Positions 5,161 to 33,039 of a DNA stretch of 33,039 nt are shown here, one piece after another. The translations under genes were made by a program, and so were the position numbers. Position 1 is the first letter of the stretch, and each line of letters starts with the position of its first letter. Under the pieces are notes generated by a model. That model had not been told where the DNA came from, did not search any database, and was given only the letters and a program-made list of their open reading frames with translations. Origin of the DNA: a virus. The DNA lies in the IMG/VR virus record IMGVR_UViG_3300042448_001132, positions 1-33,039 of that record; one strand, 5' to 3'.

Positions 5161-5579
5161 ATCACCTCCAAATTAAACGGCTTTCCATCAGCCCAATTCA
5201 TTAGTTTTCTAAGCGCAGGGCGTGAAACAAGCCCGGCAGCCTGCATTTTACCGCTGGGTATCTTAATCGAGCCAAGTCTTTCGGCTGGCGCAATACATCC
5301 GTGAAGCTGAGTTATCCACCCATTATACACATCCCCTGCAAGGTTAGATGCGTGTATAAGTATGTGACTACGCCCAGGCACGTTCTGAACCCCATAAACT
5401 TTCCCGAATCTTGGGCTATTCACCAAAGCGCACTGATACGTCCCGGTCGGTATGCAACTCACTCGGCGTGCATTGTCGCGCCACGGCAATTCGACCGTGT
5501 GCAGTACGTTTCCACCGAAATATAACCTGCCAAACGTGCCTTGGTCTGTACTGTTTCCGCGCTTTAGCGTGACAATCAT
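5154..5579 (-). CDS. DUF5675-like phage protein, possible lysis enzyme
   Basis: A 141-aa protein. Features include an N-terminal strand MIVTLKRG, WRDNARRVSCIPTGTY, SHILIHASN with H76, and QLHGCIAPAE with C95. DUF5675 proteins in phages and effectors share this His...Gly-Cys arrangement, which recalls L,D-transpeptidase-type folds; a cell-wall role is inferred from the neighbours. The ATG at 5579 overlaps the preceding stop as ATGA and is preferred to a TTG at 5591. Confidence 0.7.
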   Translation of the reverse strand: MIVTLKRGNSTDQGTFGRLYFGGNVLHTVELPWRDNARRVSCIPTGTYQCALVNSPRFGKVYGVQNVPGRSHILIHASNLAGDVYNGWITQLHGCIAPAERLGSIKIPSGKMQAAGLVSRPALRKLMNWADGKPFNLEVIC

Positions 5580-9870: not shown

Positions 9871-11147
9871 GGTATTAAATTCCCTTGAGCGTCATAACGA
9901 AGTCGGTTTTTGGGAATGGCAGGTTGTTCAATTTTAGGCGCGCTTGGCGCTATTCCGCTTTGCGCAGTTCTTGCGCGTTCTACGCCTTTGCGAATAATAG
10001 ACTGAAATTCTCGTGCAGCTTTTATAAACTCAGATTCGCTCCCAGCGGCATCCATTCGAGCAATTGCATCAGTTGCTTTTTTACCTTCAACCTCAGTAAT
10101 TGCACCCCCTCCTTTAAGAGATTCAAATGCTTGTAAGAACTGTTGCCCTTTGAGTTGGTCAAGACGAATATCAAAATCTTTAGCAGGAGTGCCTGGAATT
10201 TTTTGGATTCCAAGCAAACGACTCGCCCCGACCGCTTGTTTCATTCCTGGGGCATTTAACAAATCATCAACAAGACGAATTGTCTCTTCACCTTGCGTTA
10301 TTGCTTTTGGAGCTTCTAATCGCGATTCTGTACGCATTTTTGCTTCGGTTGTTGCTGCCGCTTTTGCTCCAGCTAAAGAACCTTGTAAGGTCGGGTCATC
10401 AGAAGCTTTGATAACCGGCTGACCATTGATGGAGCCAAGCGACAATTCACCTGTACGCGCATTGCCCACGGCGATGCCCTGGGGTGTTCCGATGAACTGG
10501 TAATACCCTTGTTGCTGCGGCTGCATACTACGGCGCAACTCAACCATTTCGCGCTGGAATTGGCGTTGCATTTCGGCTTGTTCTGCTGCGCTGGCGTTTC
10601 TAGCCTGTAGTTCTGCCATGCGCGACTCTTGCTGGAATCGAAGCTGGTCCATACGAGCCTGTCGTGCTGTTTCAGCCTCTTGCTGACGGAATGCTCGATC
10701 TTCAACCCTTTGAGCCGCTGCCGCTTCCAGTTCAGGAATTCGACTAATTCCTTGCATTGCCATCTGACGATAGCCAGCATCAGGCGCACCCATCAATGCT
10801 CTATAAGCGCCTGGCATATCTTGTGGCTCTGCGGGTCTTGGTGGGCCAGCAACATCGGGCGGCAATACTTCAGCCGGTCGGCCTAACGCTTTTTCGGTGA
10901 AACCGCGAAGCGCGTTAGCTAAAGCTTTTTCTCTTTCACTTCCGATTTGCGTTATTTCTTCCTGCGCCATTTGTTGCCCACGCATACCGCCGAGCGAACG
11001 AAGGCCAGCGGCTAGATATTCAAGCGGGTTAGGGGCAACGTATATATTCCCCACCATGCGGCCTTGCGGAGCTTGGTATTGAGCTTGCTGGCCGTAGCGT
11101 AATGCTCTTTCACGCGCTAGTTGCAGTTGTTGTTCGTAGTCTGTCAT
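9867..11147 (-). CDS. Ejection / internal virion protein with coiled coil, 426 aa
   Basis: Helical, Gln/Ala/Arg-rich. Residues about 135-215 form a long coiled coil (many Glu-Ala and Arg-Gln repeats, e.g. QAEMQRQFQREMVELRRSM). The C-terminal half (about 265-400) has helices with GASRLLGIQKIPGT, DQLKGQQFLQAFESLKGGGAITEVEG and ARMDAAGS. The latter pattern is common in podovirus structural proteins that precede the large ejection protein. It probably forms part of the ejected channel. Confidence 0.65.
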   Translation of the reverse strand: MTDYEQQLQLARERALRYGQQAQYQAPQGRMVGNIYVAPNPLEYLAAGLRSLGGMRGQQMAQEEITQIGSEREKALANALRGFTEKALGRPAEVLPPDVAGPPRPAEPQDMPGAYRALMGAPDAGYRQMAMQGISRIPELEAAAAQRVEDRAFRQQEAETARQARMDQLRFQQESRMAELQARNASAAEQAEMQRQFQREMVELRRSMQPQQQGYYQFIGTPQGIAVGNARTGELSLGSINGQPVIKASDDPTLQGSLAGAKAAATTEAKMRTESRLEAPKAITQGEETIRLVDDLLNAPGMKQAVGASRLLGIQKIPGTPAKDFDIRLDQLKGQQFLQAFESLKGGGAITEVEGKKATDAIARMDAAGSESEFIKAAREFQSIIRKGVERARTAQSGIAPSAPKIEQPAIPKNRLRYDAQGNLIP

Positions 11148-20281: not shown

Positions 20282-21472
20282 TCAAGCGGAAGCAATAAAG
20301 CCAGTCACGTCACCCGCCGCAAGTCCGGTGGCCGTGTTATCGGTCAATCCTCTAGCGGATGTGACTGCGATCTGAATGCCAGTTGAAAAACCTAGCCCGC
20401 CAGGGAAATTGACAGTCCGTGCTTGGCTAGGCTCTAAACAAACCTCAAACAGCGCACTTGTGGTGCCCATAGTGACACTTGTGGCATTAAAAAACTTGAC
20501 ATAGCGCCGAGTAACAGCAGCATTGTGCAAATCGTATCCCGCCAGTCTACCGGCCGAACCTTTGATGGATTGCCCTGCGGGGGTTGCCGGAGAGGTTACA
20601 GGAGCAGCCGATGCCGCACCCGTCGCTGTGCTTCGGTACTGAATGCCAAAATCACCGATGGCATTAGTACCAGCAGCAATAGAGCCCGTACCGATGTTGG
20701 CAGTAACCGTGCCCGATACAGGCTGCGTGCCACTGATCTGGGCCGCTGGAATTGGCTCCGTAGCGTATGCACCCGGCTGAATCTGAATGGTCGCAGTGCC
20801 CGATGTCCACGCAGTGGCGCGCACGCGGAACCAATTCAGCCCGTTAACCGCTAGCTCCCAGCCATAAGCGGGAGGTGCGCCCAATACGCCCGATGTCGTC
20901 TCAATTGTGTTGGCGTTTGTGCGTACAGCCTGAATGCCAAACCAGTTGCCATTGGTGCCGTTCGTGCTGTTGAGCGATCCCTCAAAAGTAAAGTTGACGC
21001 CCGCAAACGTACCAACAACGTACACCATGACGTTAGACACGCGGCTGACGTTAGACGGCACCGCGCTGCTTGCACTTGTGATTGTCCCGGTCACTAGCGG
21101 ATACCCGGCAGGCTGCACAGCGACCTTAAGCCGCCCTGCTTCGTCCATCTTGAGAATGGTGTAGTCGCCGTCATCCGCTGTCGATGTGTCAGTATCTGAT
21201 CGAATCGCTAACATCAGATTACCGATTGCGCCTGTAACGTGTAGCGTGTCCTCAGCGTAAGCTGACGCGCTCGTAATCGGCAAAGGCGTTGCCCGTAGCT
21301 GCGCGTCAGTCACCGGGCCAGTAACAGGCATCGGGTTAGCCGCAGTTACAGGCGAAGAAATACCATCGCCGCCGATGTCAAGCTTGCTGTAAGGGTACTT
21401 AACACCCGCCACATCATCGGCAGCAAACGTATCGCCACCTGTCCCAGGATTGGCCGTAAAGTTATCTGCCAT
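20282..21472 (-). CDS. Putative head decoration / virion protein, 396 aa
   Basis: A beta-rich protein with PMPVTGPVTDAQLRATPLPI (residues 46-65), a repeat type found in phage virion proteins next to the portal, then DDGDYTILKMDEAGRLKV, ATIQIQPGAYATEPI around 230 and GLGFSTGIQIAVTSARGLTDN near the C-terminus. The last motif (FSTGIxIAVTxARxLTD) is common to this family. It may decorate capsid or attach near the portal. Its ATG overlaps the portal stop by 1 nt. Confidence 0.7.
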   Translation of the reverse strand: MADNFTANPGTGGDTFAADDVAGVKYPYSKLDIGGDGISSPVTAANPMPVTGPVTDAQLRATPLPITSASAYAEDTLHVTGAIGNLMLAIRSDTDTSTADDGDYTILKMDEAGRLKVAVQPAGYPLVTGTITSASSAVPSNVSRVSNVMVYVVGTFAGVNFTFEGSLNSTNGTNGNWFGIQAVRTNANTIETTSGVLGAPPAYGWELAVNGLNWFRVRATAWTSGTATIQIQPGAYATEPIPAAQISGTQPVSGTVTANIGTGSIAAGTNAIGDFGIQYRSTATGAASAAPVTSPATPAGQSIKGSAGRLAGYDLHNAAVTRRYVKFFNATSVTMGTTSALFEVCLEPSQARTVNFPGGLGFSTGIQIAVTSARGLTDNTATGLAAGDVTGFIASA

Positions 21473-23670
21473 TATTCGCTTTCAATTTCAATGACGCCAA
21501 TTGCTCGACCATCTTGCCCACGCTCCACAATTTTACGCTTCGGCTTGTTCATTTTGGTAACTGCATCAGCCAACATCGCTACAGCTTGCGCCATGTTGTT
21601 TTGTTGGTCGCTCAATATGTTAGCGGCCTGATCTGCCATCATTTTTACTTCGTCGCCAACTTTTTGTAAATGATTTTCGCCCTCGATTTGTACTGATACC
21701 GCTGGCTTTTCTGAGGCCTGCGCGGTCATTTGTGCAATTGTGATTTTAGTTTCAGCGTCGATCCTGGCTTTCATTTCTGCGCGTTCTGTTTCAGCCTGCT
21801 GGCGCATGATTTCGAGATTCTTGGCTTGTTCTGCTTTGAATTGCTCAATCTGCAAACTTGCTTGCAGCTTAGCTTGCTCGATTTGCCCTTGCGTTTGTAT
21901 TTTTGCCTGTTCTAGCTGCATCTTGCCCTGTTCGACCTGCATCATAGCCTCGGCTTTCATTTGTTCCGGGTCAGGCTGCGGCTGTTCAGGCGGTTTCGGT
22001 GCGTTCAGTTTAGCCATCGCCTCATCAAAAGCAGATTCCATCATTCTGCCGCCTTTGAATGCGCGAACACCAAACATCAGCATTTCACCCATTAAAGGCG
22101 CAAGTTCTGGCACTTGTTGTGTAACGGGTAATGCTCTGTCCATGAACTGACCGACCGCACCCAGAAACTCAATCCGGCTTTGTTTTTCGGTGGCTTCGTC
22201 CATTTCTACCAGTGAATCAGAGGCAACCTCAATCCTGAACCCTCTGGCTGGCTCAGACTTCAACAACATAATGGCCTGCTCTGCGTATTGAGCGTCCATT
22301 GTCCCCATGATTCCAGACATCTCGACAAGGGTCTGTGGTGCGTAAAAATCACACATTATCTGGGCTTTGATTCTCAGCACTTCCGAAGCAAACTGCGCCA
22401 CTTCGGTCTGTAGGCGTTTCAGTCTCAGTGAAGCGTACTGGCTTTTAATCTGTTGCGCGGTAGCCGTTTCCGAAGCCATCGACGCACCGCGAATGATGTC
22501 AGACAGTCCGGTGATCTCATACACTACCTGCTTCGCTTGCTCTCTGGCTGCGTAGCATTCTCTTAAAGCTTGAAGGACAGAATCCAGCGGCATGAAGTCC
22601 ACGACACCCTTTAGCCCGCCCTTTTCCGCAAAAGCCGCCCAAGTATCCACAGGTATCAACTGGTTATTCACACCCTCGCTTAACATCCTTTGCACACCCT
22701 GCTGGCTTGCGTCATAGACACCCACGACTTTAACCGCTTCGACTAACATTGCTATCCTGTTGGTTAGCATGTCAATCTCTTCGGCTTGGTCTTGGTAAAG
22801 GCTGTAATCAGCTATGGGTACTAAAGTCTCGGTGGTTTGGGTAGAAAATAAAGGCTTGGGACAAGGCCAGAAATTATCTAAACCGAGCGGGTCGTCTTTA
22901 ATGTCCAGCGTCTTAGAGTATCCCTCAGACACCCAGAAGACCTGCTTTGTCGTCTTGCTCCATATTTCCCAGACAACGGCTTTTTTCATGTCGTCCAGGC
23001 CTTCAACACCCATCTTTTCCATCTCGTCAAGGCCAACAGGCTCGTGAGTTAATGGAACTTGCTTAAAATCCTCGCCGAATCGTTTAATACCGTCCTCTTG
23101 GCTCATGTACACCCTACGGGCGATCCATGTCACTTCATCCCAACATCTTGCGGGTGAATATCTAACATCTTTCCAGAAGACATAATCTACCGGGGTACAT
23201 TCGTATTTATACGGCGCGTTGGGCATGACCTGCGCCTCGCCGCCTTCCTCACCGGGCAAAGCGTCAACAGGTTGGGCTAGTTCTTTTTCCTCGAATCGCA
23301 CCCACACCGTACCGCGTCCCGGAAGCAATCTGTCAAGTATCGCCAGCCTCATCGAAGCGTCAAAATCGCCCTTGTCAATCTCGTACTGTAAGCAACGTTC
23401 TATAATCACCGAGGCAGTGCGTCCTACTGGGTCAGAATCCTTCCAGCGTCTCGATACTTCGGCTCTAGGTGTTTTCCCGTATAGGGCTGGCATCATGGTC
23501 TGAATGTTCGACCACAATATATTGAATCGCCTACCGTATGTCGTGAAGTTTTTACGGTCGTCGCGGTAACGCCTGATTATTTTGTCGCCACGCTCAATAA
23601 ACTTCTCATCTTCACGCTTGGCAAGTTTTAACTCAGCCAGCCATTTTGTGCTTGCATCAACGGGGTTCAT
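21472..23670 (-). CDS. Portal protein, P22/epsilon15-type
   Basis: A 732-aa protein, the size of P22-like portals (about 725). Residues 30-75 carry YGRRFNILWSNIQTMMPALYGKTPRAEV, characteristic of this family; then CTPVDYVFWKDVRYSPAR and LFSTQTTETLVPIADYSLYQDQAEEID. Residues about 555-640 form a long Gln/Ala/Glu coiled coil with tandem EQAKIQ-like repeats, and the end is ERGQDGRAIGVIEIE. It forms the dodecameric DNA channel. Overlaps the preceding gene by ATGA. Confidence 0.93.
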   Translation of the reverse strand: MNPVDASTKWLAELKLAKREDEKFIERGDKIIRRYRDDRKNFTTYGRRFNILWSNIQTMMPALYGKTPRAEVSRRWKDSDPVGRTASVIIERCLQYEIDKGDFDASMRLAILDRLLPGRGTVWVRFEEKELAQPVDALPGEEGGEAQVMPNAPYKYECTPVDYVFWKDVRYSPARCWDEVTWIARRVYMSQEDGIKRFGEDFKQVPLTHEPVGLDEMEKMGVEGLDDMKKAVVWEIWSKTTKQVFWVSEGYSKTLDIKDDPLGLDNFWPCPKPLFSTQTTETLVPIADYSLYQDQAEEIDMLTNRIAMLVEAVKVVGVYDASQQGVQRMLSEGVNNQLIPVDTWAAFAEKGGLKGVVDFMPLDSVLQALRECYAAREQAKQVVYEITGLSDIIRGASMASETATAQQIKSQYASLRLKRLQTEVAQFASEVLRIKAQIMCDFYAPQTLVEMSGIMGTMDAQYAEQAIMLLKSEPARGFRIEVASDSLVEMDEATEKQSRIEFLGAVGQFMDRALPVTQQVPELAPLMGEMLMFGVRAFKGGRMMESAFDEAMAKLNAPKPPEQPQPDPEQMKAEAMMQVEQGKMQLEQAKIQTQGQIEQAKLQASLQIEQFKAEQAKNLEIMRQQAETERAEMKARIDAETKITIAQMTAQASEKPAVSVQIEGENHLQKVGDEVKMMADQAANILSDQQNNMAQAVAMLADAVTKMNKPKRKIVERGQDGRAIGVIEIESE

Positions 23671-29936: not shown

Positions 29937-30194
29937 TTAATACCATTTATAATCTTCATCTGTCGGCTTTGATACTGGCGTTTTCCAATAAGGTTCTTTT
30001 TTCTCGGTCGGTGATCCTTTTGGTCGTGTTTTTCCTGTGTAGCAAACCTGTTCATCGTCCGCTGTAATTACTCGTCCCTCGCGTGCCAGCCATACATGCT
30101 TTATTTGTGTCCGAGCCTCACCGTCCCACAAGTGCCAGACGTATGCGTCTTGTGGCATTTGTTTTAGTAATTCAATAAGCTTTTTTACTTTCAT
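29937..30194 (-). CDS. Phage protein, DUF6972-like (LKKMPQDAxVW), 85 aa
   Basis: Starts MKVKKLIELLKQMPQDAYVW, followed by a strand-rich part (GEARTQIKHVWLAREGRVI, then DEQVCYTGK) and a basic C-terminal tail with KEPYWKTPVSKPTDED. Proteins opening with a V-x-x-LIELL...PxDAxVW motif are frequent in phages; the role is unknown and the family name is only a guess. It overlaps the preceding gene by 23 nt and has GGAGAAAAACTC before its ATG. Confidence 0.6.
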   Translation of the reverse strand: MKVKKLIELLKQMPQDAYVWHLWDGEARTQIKHVWLAREGRVITADDEQVCYTGKTRPKGSPTEKKEPYWKTPVSKPTDEDYKWY

Positions 30195-30456
30195 GAGTTT
30201 TTCTCCAAAGTATGCCGGAAATTAGCGGTTGCCATTCACGCTGCAACTCCTGTTTCTCAGGCTTTCTATGCGCTATAGCCTCTCCGTCAGCAAACAAGAC
30301 TTCGCGCAGCGCCCAGCTTTCTTGCTTCTCAGCCTGTTCAATAGCAGCACGTAGGGCGTCAATAGTTTCGCCAAAAGTGATCGGGTCTGCCGCGTCACCT
30401 CGCTCCAACACTTCCATCGCCCGTTCCATCGCTTGCTTCATTGCTTCAATGCTCAT
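30172..30456 (-). CDS. Mosaic early protein, MSIEAMKQA type, 94 aa
   Basis: Shares MSIEAMKQAMERAMEVLE with the 28518 and 30453 genes, then ALRAAIEQAEKQESWALREV, similar to the 30453 gene (TLRAAIEQAEEP). The C-terminus has LQREWQPLISGILWRKTHE, with the REWQ module. ATGA overlap with the preceding gene. Function unknown. Confidence 0.65.
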   Translation of the reverse strand: MSIEAMKQAMERAMEVLERGDAADPITFGETIDALRAAIEQAEKQESWALREVLFADGEAIAHRKPEKQELQREWQPLISGILWRKTHESKKAY

Positions 30457-30863
30457 TTCTTCTCTCCTATGCCGTGCGCGGCTTCTGTAGCTGAGAAAAT
30501 GCGCGGCTTCGGCAAATCACTCAGCCACTTTTCAGGCGCGTCCTTGAACTGCGGCTCTCGCTGCTCAAGCAGTGACACCGCAAACTCCAGCCCGTTGTAA
30601 AGCCCGTGCATATACGGGTCGCAGTTCCATGTACCGTCCATGCCCTGCACATCCCGCATTTGGCGCACTGAATCAATCAGCGGCTCTTCCGCTTGCTCGA
30701 TAGCTGCGCGGAGGGTGGTTATGGCGTCGGCGATCTTCTTAACATCCTCATATATCGCGGTCTTGTAGCCAACAGAGGCATACGTCTCCACCGCTTCATC
30801 ATTCACGCATTCGTAGCCGATCTCTAGCGCATCCAGCGCCTGCTTCATTGCTTCAATGCTCAT
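30453..30863 (-). CDS. Mosaic early protein, MSIEAMKQALDALE type, 136 aa
   Basis: Modules: MSIEAMKQALDALEIGYEC, KIADAITTLRAAIEQAEEP (about 45-63), then GTWNCDPYMHGLYNGLEFAV and LLEQREPQFKDAPEKW. The last two occur in short phage early proteins. It ends GEKK via the junction, with an ATGA overlap. Unknown role. Confidence 0.7.
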   Translation of the reverse strand: MSIEAMKQALDALEIGYECVNDEAVETYASVGYKTAIYEDVKKIADAITTLRAAIEQAEEPLIDSVRQMRDVQGMDGTWNCDPYMHGLYNGLEFAVSLLEQREPQFKDAPEKWLSDLPKPRIFSATEAAHGIGEKK

Positions 30864-31192
30864 GTTTTCCCCTCTGCTTTGGCAATGGCTTTTTTAGCAA
30901 TCTTACGGCCTTCTTCAACCCACTCACCAAAATCTACAACTTCTCTGTCATCAAGAAAATAAAGCAACGCCTTAAGCAACTCCGGCGCGGCTGCGATCAG
31001 GCGAGCGTTATCGAATCCACTGTAGCAGTGCGCCACAACGTGAGACTCTTGACCATCAGGAAACATCTTGCGAATAACGAGGTCATCCTGCGCGTTGAAG
31101 TAGATGTCCCACGGCCCCGGTGTGATGCTTTTACCGCCTCGGCAAAATTCATCGAATGTCATATCGACGATCTTTTCATTGATGATGTTCAT
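30860..31192 (-). CDS. Early protein with TPGPW and ARLIAAAPELLKAL modules
   Basis: A 110-aa protein. TPGPWDIYFNAQDD around residues 24-37 and DNARLIAAAPELLKALLYFL around 61-80 are the classic pair seen in phage early proteins of unknown function; residues 81-110 form a helix with Lys-rich end (AKKAIAKAEGKT). First gene of the mosaic cluster; AAGGAGAGAGAT precedes the ATG and the promoter at 31219-31246 lies 27 nt upstream. Confidence 0.75.
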   Translation of the reverse strand: MNIINEKIVDMTFDEFCRGGKSITPGPWDIYFNAQDDLVIRKMFPDGQESHVVAHCYSGFDNARLIAAAPELLKALLYFLDDREVVDFGEWVEEGRKIAKKAIAKAEGKT

Positions 31193-31218
31193 ATCTCTCT
31201 CCTTAGTTGGTAAGAGAT

Positions 31219-31246
31219 ATTATACACACTTATTCAGATCATGCAA
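31219..31246 (-). promoter_or_regulatory. Repeated-type phage promoter, copy 2
   Basis: On minus: -35 TTGCAT (31246-31241), 16-bp spacer ending AAGTGTG, -10 TATAAT (31224-31219). It has the same -35 as copy 4. It overlaps the end of the resolvase gene and drives the mosaic cluster from 31192 leftward, and possibly the structured RNA. Confidence 0.8.
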
Positions 31247-31652
31247 GCGCTAAAACACACATTGCCGCATCGCGCTCGTGTTGGTTGCTTTTTTTCTGCC
31301 AGCCCGTCAGCTTGTTAAAAGTCTCAGCGTCCAGCTTGCGCCCTTTGTGCTTCGGGCTTATTCCGTGGGCGTTTATTTTCATTTCTTCACATATGGCGCA
31401 TATTAAATTGCATATAGCGTCAACCTGCCCGACATTCCGGGCTATCTTCATGCGTGCAGCTTGGCTAGTGCCCCGGCTCCAAACTGGCGAAGTCAAGCGC
31501 GAATCCTCGAATATCACGCTTGTAACGGAAAAGCTAGGAAGCAGCGTTATTAGCTGTATTGGCGTCCAGGTGGTTAGCTTTGTAAGCTTTCCGTTCTCAA
31601 ATATAGCTACGCCAGTGCTTGCTCCGGGGTCAAGTCCGATTAGCATACTCAT
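31239..31652 (-). CDS. RuvC-like Holliday-junction resolvase
   Basis: A 137-aa RNase H-fold nuclease. MLIGLDPGASTGVAIFENG holds the first catalytic Asp (D8), SVIFEDSRL the Glu (E49), and the final helix NQHERDAAMCVLALA the last Asp (D128), as in phage RuvC-type resolvases. It would cut branched DNA before packaging or during recombination, pairing with ERF and NinB. The ATG at 31652 lies inside the end of the ribbon-helix-helix gene (overlap 23 nt). Confidence 0.88.
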   Translation of the reverse strand: MSMLIGLDPGASTGVAIFENGKLTKLTTWTPIQLITLLPSFSVTSVIFEDSRLTSPVWSRGTSQAARMKIARNVGQVDAICNLICAICEEMKINAHGISPKHKGRKLDAETFNKLTGWQKKSNQHERDAAMCVLALA

Positions 31653-31791
31653 TTATCAGCTTAGTCACGCCAGCGGAAAAATTCCCCCCGCCGATCTTTT
31701 TCGCTTTTTCGTGCGCTTTTTTTGAAATGTAGATATTCACGCGCTTTGCGTCTTCAATTGTTTTTGGCTTGCCGATTTTTTTAGTGTCCAT
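31630..31791 (-). CDS. Ribbon-helix-helix DNA-binding protein, 53 aa
   Basis: After a short N-terminus (MDTKKIGKPKTIED), residues 16-50 match the MetJ/Arc-type fold: strand RVNIYIS, helix KKAHEKAKKIGG, turn, and helix NFSAGVTKLINEYA. Such dimers bind DNA through the strand. The ATG at 31791 is 7 nt from the -10 box, at the expected transcription start, so the mRNA from that promoter would be leaderless. It is the only clear repressor-type gene here and may regulate the repeated promoters. Confidence 0.85.
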   Translation of the reverse strand: MDTKKIGKPKTIEDAKRVNIYISKKAHEKAKKIGGGNFSAGVTKLINEYANRT

Positions 31792-31797
31792 AATCTC

Positions 31798-31825
31798 ATT
31801 CTACACACTTACGCGGCAGGTTCAA
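31798..31825 (-). promoter_or_regulatory. Repeated-type phage promoter, copy 1 (RHH gene)
   Basis: On minus: -35 TTGAAC (31825-31820), 16-bp spacer ending AAGTGTG, -10 TAGAAT (31803-31798). Only 6 nt separate the -10 from the ATG of the ribbon-helix-helix gene. Confidence 0.75.
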
Positions 31826-31922
31826 GCCTTTTGTCCCAATCACACTCAAAAGAAAACGGAAGCCTGCCGAATATCTGCATTAGCTCCCGCTCTTTAGCGC
31901 TTAACGCGCAGCCTTTCGACAT
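31809..31922 (-). CDS. 37-aa ORF overlapping the 73-aa gene
   Basis: Starts MSKGCALSAKERELMQIFG, then FSFECDWDKRLEPAA. It overlaps the end of the previous gene by 29 nt in another frame. Its start has no clear Shine-Dalgarno, but the coupling resembles that of the neighbours and the sequence is protein-like. It could also be the shifted end of the 73-aa product. The -35 box of promoter copy 1 lies in its 3' end. Confidence 0.45.
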   Translation of the reverse strand: MSKGCALSAKERELMQIFGRLPFSFECDWDKRLEPAA

Positions 31923-32115
31923 CTCTAAGCCAGCCCGATGACTTCGCACAGGCAAGAATGCTGGTTTTGACGCGTTCGGCAATGTCGCGCCCAAGTCGGG
32001 CTTCAATGTCTCGCAAGTAGTCCGCGACTTTATCTCTTTCCCCATCATGAAAATTCTCGACGGCGCAGCAGAAACGCTCAAAAGTCTCGGCGCGTTCATT
32101 CGTTTGCAGGCTCAT
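31894..32115 (-). CDS. Hypothetical protein, 73 aa, helical
   Basis: Starts MSLQTNERAETFERFCCAVEN, with DGERDKVADYLRDIEARLG and VKTSILACAKSSGWLRDVE; mostly helix with three Cys. It overlaps the preceding 53-aa gene by 20 nt. A competing ORF on the same strand (up to 32099, another frame) is rejected upstream of 31922. Function unknown. Confidence 0.6.
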   Translation of the reverse strand: MSLQTNERAETFERFCCAVENFHDGERDKVADYLRDIEARLGRDIAERVKTSILACAKSSGWLRDVERLRVKR

Positions 32116-32257
32116 TCAGGTATTCGATTATTTGTTGTGCTGATATGATTGTTTGCGCTAAAAACAACAATGCAGCGTTTTTGTCTTTCATCATTAGCAC
32201 CGGCAATTTTCTGCCAGCTTCTTGTATTTTGAGTACGTCTTCGCTGTAGTCTTTCAT
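32096..32257 (-). CDS. Hypothetical protein, 53 aa
   Basis: MKDYSEDVLKIQEAGRKLPV start, then LMMKDKNAALLFLAQTIIS and a helical end (AQQIIEYLNEPANE). No family recognised. The ATG lies 4 nt after the stop of the zinc-type gene. Probably coupled to it in the same transcript. Confidence 0.6.
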   Translation of the reverse strand: MKDYSEDVLKIQEAGRKLPVLMMKDKNAALLFLAQTIISAQQIIEYLNEPANE

Positions 32258-32261
32258 TAAC

Positions 32262-32549
32262 TTATTCCTTTGCAGCGTTTTTGTTTGCCATCGAAATTAA
32301 ACATTGTGCGCGAATATCTGCCAACAAGTTTGCTGTTATTCCATGCCTATCCATAACTTCAAACGCCGAGCGCATCATGCTTTCAAACAATTCAATATCG
32401 CTTTGTCTCGCAACGACCGGGTGACGATAGCGGTTGATATACCCGCAGTGTTGGCAACGGGTTTCTGTTGTTGCCATTTCCATTTCTGCCATTTCTTGCA
32501 ACGTTTCGCCAAGCCACTTGCTCATAGGTTTATCGTTATAAGTGTTCAT
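32262..32549 (-). CDS. Zinc-type (CxxC) early protein, 95 aa, first phage gene
   Basis: Residues 31-37 carry RCQHCGY, followed by INRYRHPVVARQSDIE; a single CxxC with H42 could be half a zinc site completed by dimerisation. The rest is helical (FESMMRSAFEVMDRHGITA). AAGGAGCG stands 8 nt before the ATG at 32549. It is the right-most phage gene; attC1 begins 26 nt upstream, so no phage promoter of the repeated type precedes it. Confidence 0.65.
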   Translation of the reverse strand: MNTYNDKPMSKWLGETLQEMAEMEMATTETRCQHCGYINRYRHPVVARQSDIELFESMMRSAFEVMDRHGITANLLADIRAQCLISMANKNAAKE

Positions 32550-32575
32550 AATTTTCTCGCTCCTTTTTCCTTTTC

Positions 32576-32633
32576 ACATAACACTACGTTCCTGCGGATT
32601 CGCTACGCTCACCGCTGAACTTATCCGTTAGAA
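32576..32633 (+). other. Integron attC site 1
   Basis: TAAC (32579-32582) pairs with GTTA (32627-32630); the L boxes GTTC-C-TGCGG (32588-32597) and CCGCTGAAC (32612-32620) pair with an extrahelical C at 32592 and one T-T mismatch. Spacers are 5 and 6 nt and the loop is 14 nt. The core site is GTTAGAA (32627). The extrahelical base on the 5' arm sets the orientation as plus, like aadA attC. Confidence 0.88.
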
Positions 32634-32637
32634 CTTT

Positions 32638-32901
32638 ATGAACCATCGTTATGCCGTTCTTTTCCATAAAACGCCTCCTCAAGAGCTTCTCGCATTGTTT
32701 GAGGATTATTTTTATTCTTTCCACGATCAAAAATTTCTTCTTTGTTATTCATTTGAGAATCTTGGTGCATTTTCTTTGCTTGAAATAATGCACACTGACA
32801 AAAGCAAAAAACCGTGGAGGGTTCAGGTGCAAACTCAATACGTCCTAGCTGTTGCTGACATGTCAAATGTTGATAATGTGCCAATTGGTTTTCTTTCATA
32901 A
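32638..32901 (+). CDS. Integron cassette ORF, 87 aa
   Basis: Starts 10 nt after the attC1 crossover point and ends 9 nt before attC2, exactly the layout of a gene cassette of 331 bp. The protein begins MNHRYAVLFHKTPPQELLAL, has a SFHDQKFLLCYSFEN segment and ends VLAVADMSNVDNVPIGFLS. It looks like a small alpha/beta protein; not recognised. It is on the opposite strand from all phage genes. The minus-strand ORF over the same bases is a shadow. It has no Shine-Dalgarno of note, as is common in cassettes. Confidence 0.8.
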   Translation: MNHRYAVLFHKTPPQELLALFEDYFYSFHDQKFLLCYSFENLGAFSLLEIMHTDKSKKPWRVQVQTQYVLAVADMSNVDNVPIGFLS

Positions 32902-32910
32902 AAATTCCTT

Positions 32911-32964
32911 TTCTAACCCATCGTTCCAGCGGATGCTTCGCCCCGCTGAACTTCGCCGTTATGC
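32911..32964 (+). other. Integron attC site 2
   Basis: TAAC (32914-32917) pairs with GTTA (32958-32961); GTTC-C-AGCGG (32923-32932) pairs perfectly with CCGCTGAAC (32943-32951), with extrahelical C at 32927. Spacers are 5 and 6 nt and the loop is 10 nt (ATGCTTCGCC). The core is GTTATGC (32958). About 54 bp in total, with the same arms as attC1. Confidence 0.92.
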
Positions 32965-33039
32965 TTTATGCTGTTCCACACCGTAGGTTTCCCGGTCACG
33001 CTTTCGAGGTAGCAACCATCCGCTTTGTCAGGTCGAACG
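32961..33039 (+). CDS. Start of a second integron cassette, cut by the window
   Basis: After the attC2 crossover, an ATG at 32961 (within the core site) opens a frame that stays open to the window end (MLYAVPHRRFPGHAF...). A second ATG at 32968 stops after 14 codons. A different frame is open from 32987 to the end and, if base 33039 were joined to base 1, would run into the ORF ending at 235. Gene content cannot be settled from 79 bases. Confidence 0.35.
   Translation, partial: MLYAVPHRRFPGHAFEVATIRFVRSN

Follow-up and report, generated by a model that had tools for sequence, protein, structure and literature searches.

Differing attC-bounded gene cassette arrays at one locus of an uncultivated tailed-phage lineage

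Related tailed phages carry different arrays of small, attC-bounded units at one and the same locus, the arrays lie inside the phage genomes, and the units that they share change neighbours at the core G/TT (the slash marks the cut). The finding stems from a 33,039-bp virus record, IMGVR_UViG_3300042448_001132, which is called the window here. Our preferred reading, held with reasonable confidence, is a phage-borne CALIN (at least two nearby attCs and no intI) at a fixed locus of a tailed-phage lineage, in which the host integrase does the shuffling, alongside some homologous recombination. The relevant features of the window are as follows.

1907-2665, minus: Erf-like single-strand annealing protein, candidate phage recombinase; across the array from the RuvC-like side on the circular map
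21472-23670, minus: portal protein, phage marker
24253-25671, minus: terminase large subunit, phage marker
31239-31652, minus: RuvC-like Holliday junction resolvase, conserved on the left of the array locus
32262-32549, minus: left flank gene; varies among related phages, and its leader touches attC1
32576-32633, plus: attC1 (R' GTTAGAA), found by covariance model; array edge adjoining phage genes
32628-32958, plus: cassette 1, 331 bp from core G/TT to core G/TT
32636-32899, minus: competing 87-aa ORF, preceded by AAGGA; slightly less conserved in the homologue named in the next line
32638-32901, plus: 87-aa ORF in the usual cassette orientation, mildly favoured; homologue with 40% identity in a phage cassette (contig 3300037485_000776)
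32911-32964, plus: attC2 (R'' TTCTAAC, R' GTTATGC), found by covariance model
32913-33039, minus: second cassette, RNA-ligase gene (3' end only); reads through attC2 and off the window end

Both window sites are attC sites, as the initial annotation had proposed. A covariance model built from 18 bacterial attCs (R1; class 1 cassettes plus Burkholderiales/Rhodocyclaceae arrays) finds the two on the plus strand with 42.1 bits (E 4e-9) for attC1 and 45.6 bits (E 4.3e-10) for attC2, the next best match in the window having E=2. As 4 of the 18 training rows had been found via a pattern derived from phage sites, the model was rebuilt minus these rows (R2), and it again recovers both, with E values of 1.7e-5 and 2.5e-7, respectively, and a next best in the window of 0.82. 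The sites have R''/R' boxes (RYYYAAC...GTTRRRY) and paired L''/L' boxes with an extrahelical base; the first description is borne out both for the C that is extrahelical in the 5' arm (GTT-C-CAGCGG / CCGCTGAAC) and for the GTTAGAA and GTTATGC cores. Pairing holds for the inner AAC/GTT and for the L arms, while outer R-box positions are often unpaired. Among 27 distinct attC sites, 85% of cells are paired, versus 23-39% with the partner slid, in an alignment that was itself fitted to the structure. As single-strand folding energy alone is unremarkable (z -0.7 to -1.6), the attC case rests on sequence, structure and comparison; a 21-nt 5' arm of a phage attC is identical to that of a Comamonas integron attC. 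In approximately 468 kb of phage DNA, attC matches occur only at the array locus, plus one weak match at a contig end. The initial annotation had named as the sign of a wrong call phage homologues that lack L-box pairing and conserve a gene on the minus strand; none appeared. Rfam over 30000-33039 gave nothing relevant, and neither the cassette region nor a phage attC had a DNA match in the plasmid and phage collections (blastn for the phage attC against the phage collection). A strict stem scan was dropped as a source of reference attCs because it missed bulged sites.

To collect relatives of the window, the flanking gene, the cassette ORF, the terminase and an attC pattern served as queries. 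Whole-contig comparison yields a circularly permuted map that puts the array between window 33039 and window 1, bracketed by the window's Erf-like gene on one side and its RuvC-like gene on the other; a longer array begins with the two window attCs and runs past the window end. Contig G006 (3300042914_001603) has six attCs at this locus as well as the whole RNA-ligase gene, and G014 (3300008112_000002), whose ends overlap exactly over 114 bp, has two. As befits a phage-borne CALIN, phage genes flank the array on both sides in several contigs, these two included. G014 has the array region and flanking early genes in common with the window, but nothing in it detectably matches the window's structural genes; the locus is thus retained across different virion modules. 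The initial annotation had placed a cassette next to a phage: the attCs and the cassette are real, but the array sits within the phage genome and not beside it.

Across 12 related contigs from 12 metagenome records, with more contigs found later, attC arrays of varying content occupy this one locus. G006 and G010 (3300034061_002638) carry one array; the remaining contigs differ in content, order or flank over the visible part, and units around CPKCEG, MMKSW, MDEQ/NLPI and MEVKHF recur in changed orders and with changed neighbours. We compared 35 pairwise neighbour changes, which are not independent of one another. In right-shared pairs whose left side is resolvable, identity stops 1-2 nt left of the G/TT cut. 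In left-shared pairs, divergence begins 3-4 nt right of the cut, i.e., after TTA/TTAG, in all but one, the exception being G006 attC5 and G012 attC4, where identity extends 10 nt right of the cut. From exactly TTAGG on, G013 and G007 agree without a difference over 629 bp, with an attC there in only one of the two. Differences at the end of the attC are also seen: the window and 3300044617_001246 (G011) share cassette 1 yet have different bases 2-4 nt to the left of the cut, and G012 and G013 differ in the L'-R' spacer. These indicate crossovers inside the attC, which fit homologous recombination better. Solo TTTATTTTCTACG/TTAGG junctions without an attC act as cassette borders at G006 7537, G007 14501, G008 7290 and G015 1178 (coordinates with attC on plus); they may be collapsed attCs or attG-like sites.

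A changing row of attC-bounded small genes at one locus makes gene swapping by the host's own cassette-shuffling enzyme probable. The phage would provide the attC sites, and single-stranded phage DNA present during infection would allow the attC bottom strand to fold. The host integron integrase would then cut at G/TTRRRY and insert, remove or reorder cassettes, with the host integron or a co-infecting phage as exchange partner. Further exchange would come from homologous annealing of the near-identical attC repeats, which the phage Erf-like protein may carry out, and the resulting array units would derive both from bacterial cassettes in the usual orientation and from phage-type small genes on the phage coding strand. 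We infer the host integrase as the enzyme, the timing during infection and the benefit to the phage. Counted against this reading are the junctions that fall within the attC rather than at the core, the solo CTACG/TTAGG junctions without an attC, and several units whose genes run opposite to the usual cassette orientation. It is conceivable, though we lean the other way, that the array is the lineage's own diversity device, in which attCs are kept without an integrase, each host's integrase is borrowed, the phage's own early genes are made into cassettes, and anti-defence or host-takeover genes are swapped at G/TT with host integrons and other phages.

The strongest competing explanation, which we regard as unlikely but by no means negligible, accepts the array as real and has it shuffled solely by phage homologous recombination, the attC repeats providing homology for the Erf-like annealase and no integrase acting after the first capture. 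The Erf-like and RuvC-like genes that flank the array, the near-identity of the repeats and the breakpoints within the attC, left of the core, are all consistent with this, whereas several junctions lie within 2 nt of G/TT, including comparisons with sites that have no attC, where only approximately 7 nt are common.

Cassette 1 spans the 331 bp that the initial annotation gave to the unit between the attCs. It is identical in G006 and G010 and matches G011 exactly over 327/331 bp, after which G011 runs into another cassette. The plus-strand ORF fills the space between the attCs, as claimed, but the minus-strand ORF of equal size fills it equally well. The minus ORF was favoured first, on its AAGGA leader, and yielded to the plus ORF after the divergent homologue of 3300037485_000776 was compared: this scores 151 on plus versus 137 on minus, and its differences by codon position are 32/26/37 on plus versus 29/30/24 on minus, the position test alone being not significant (p=0.21). 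Codon usage does not separate the strands (0.08 versus 0.11), and the AlphaFold2 models of both ORFs, predicted from single sequences, were of poor quality (pLDDT 51 and 60) and were set aside. The plus ORF belongs to no known family; the collections searched gave no relative of it in bacteria or plasmids and no relative of the minus ORF in phages. Thus, of the earlier claim that attCs and ORF are all on plus, the attC part holds, the placing of the ORF on plus has mild to moderate support, and other units of the locus carry minus-strand genes.

Among the cargo on the minus strand are a predicted RNA ligase (PF09414, E 1.6e-18) and a Tad2-like anti-defence protein (PF11195, E 1.3e-22); PADLOC returned one weak match, which is not credible. 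Judged by sequence comparison, the arrays include units of two kinds. Some are bacterial cassettes in the usual orientation, e.g., cassette 1 of G007, whose protein is 76% identical to that of a bacterial gene followed by a weaker attC match (23.8 bits). Others are minus-strand genes like the rest of the phage, e.g., the MDEQ unit, in which variation falls mostly at third positions on minus and the plus frame gains a stop. Different minus-strand proteins run C-terminally through an attC and end in a near-identical tail (PNAEFSGERSESAGT), as at G012 1994-2182, G017 5319-5549 and G013 9913-10122 (oriented coordinates). As these C-termini run through the attC, cassette exchange would confer a shared, attC-coded tail.

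The gene layout also bears on whether the repeats merely look like attC and are intergenic elements of the phage (terminators or leaders). Minus-strand genes often begin just past one attC and finish within another, which such elements could explain along with the ordinary folding energy, but the matches to a model of bacterial attCs only, the arm identical to that of Comamonas, the junctions at G/TT and the bacterial cassette homologues make this very improbable. Least probable of all is a contig chimera or host contamination, with a bacterial integron misjoined to a phage contig or a prophage edge, to which the window's end within the array and the capacity of attC repeats to break assemblies might point; it is refuted for the lineage as a whole by the same array place in 12 contigs from 12 metagenome records, several arrays with phage genes on both sides, and one contig with exactly overlapping ends.

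No intI (TIGR02249) was found in 27 virus records, window included, most of which are fragments, whereas intI above the curated cut-off is present in each of the five bacterial genomes that the same attC pattern retrieved (5/5). The initial reading as an integron cassette therefore survives in part: integron-type attCs and a cassette are present, but with two attCs in the window, six in G006 and no intI in the phage records, the array is a CALIN rather than a complete integron. The Comamonas attC array (MAG CAMZGS010000002.1) lies close to intI, and an attC of a Rhodocyclaceae MAG matches a phage attC at 95% identity over 55 bp. The best of the listed phage matches to the window's Erf-like protein comes from a Methylophilales phage and reaches 68% across half of the protein. 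This match and the Rhodocyclaceae attC likeness suggest a betaproteobacterial host, and the hosts are probably Burkholderiales/Rhodocyclaceae-type bacteria. An attC of the betaproteobacterial pattern also occurs in a MAG contig labelled Marinifilum (DYDG01000031.1, our L054), through a mislabelled bin or distant transfer. Four more distant viral contigs with a DUF1376 gene (L153, L167, L168 and L126) have two to five attC-like sites and no intI.

Phage CALINs are a kind already known: 17 were reported among 10,705 phage genomes (Qi et al. 2023; PMC9892861), IntI1 recombined five out of the six attCs of those other phages that were assayed, and the virulent phages TJE1, PH101 and P12002L carry CALINs (PMC9892861). 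The present arrays resemble these in having at least two attCs in a phage genome, no intI, small cassettes and possible counter-defence genes, there DNA methyltransferases (PMC9892861). However, those are single isolated genomes, whereas here an uncultivated lineage has differing arrays at one locus, with junctions that speak for exchange, cargo that includes Tad2-like and RNA-ligase genes, and mixed gene orientations. Burkholderiales chromosomal integrons such as that of Comamonas are alike in attC sequence and structure, and one cassette gene family is common to the phage and an attC-adjoining bacterial gene, but the phage is without intI and without a recognised attI. Mosaic module exchange in tailed phages likewise swaps small early genes among relatives beside an Erf-like recombinase; here, in contrast, the boundaries are attC cores. 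The literature searched, whose coverage was incomplete, contained no phage lineage with differing cassette arrays at one locus and integrase-cut junctions. The new part is the lineage-wide turnover together with mixed gene orientation, and the association of phages with attCs is possibly wider than the window's lineage.

Integrons are known as bacterial gene stores. If this lineage keeps and shuffles cassettes via the host integrase, phages would not only carry the cassette pool but also draw on it, anti-defence genes could travel in cassette form, and infection-driven, integrase-dependent exchange between phage and chromosome would become testable.
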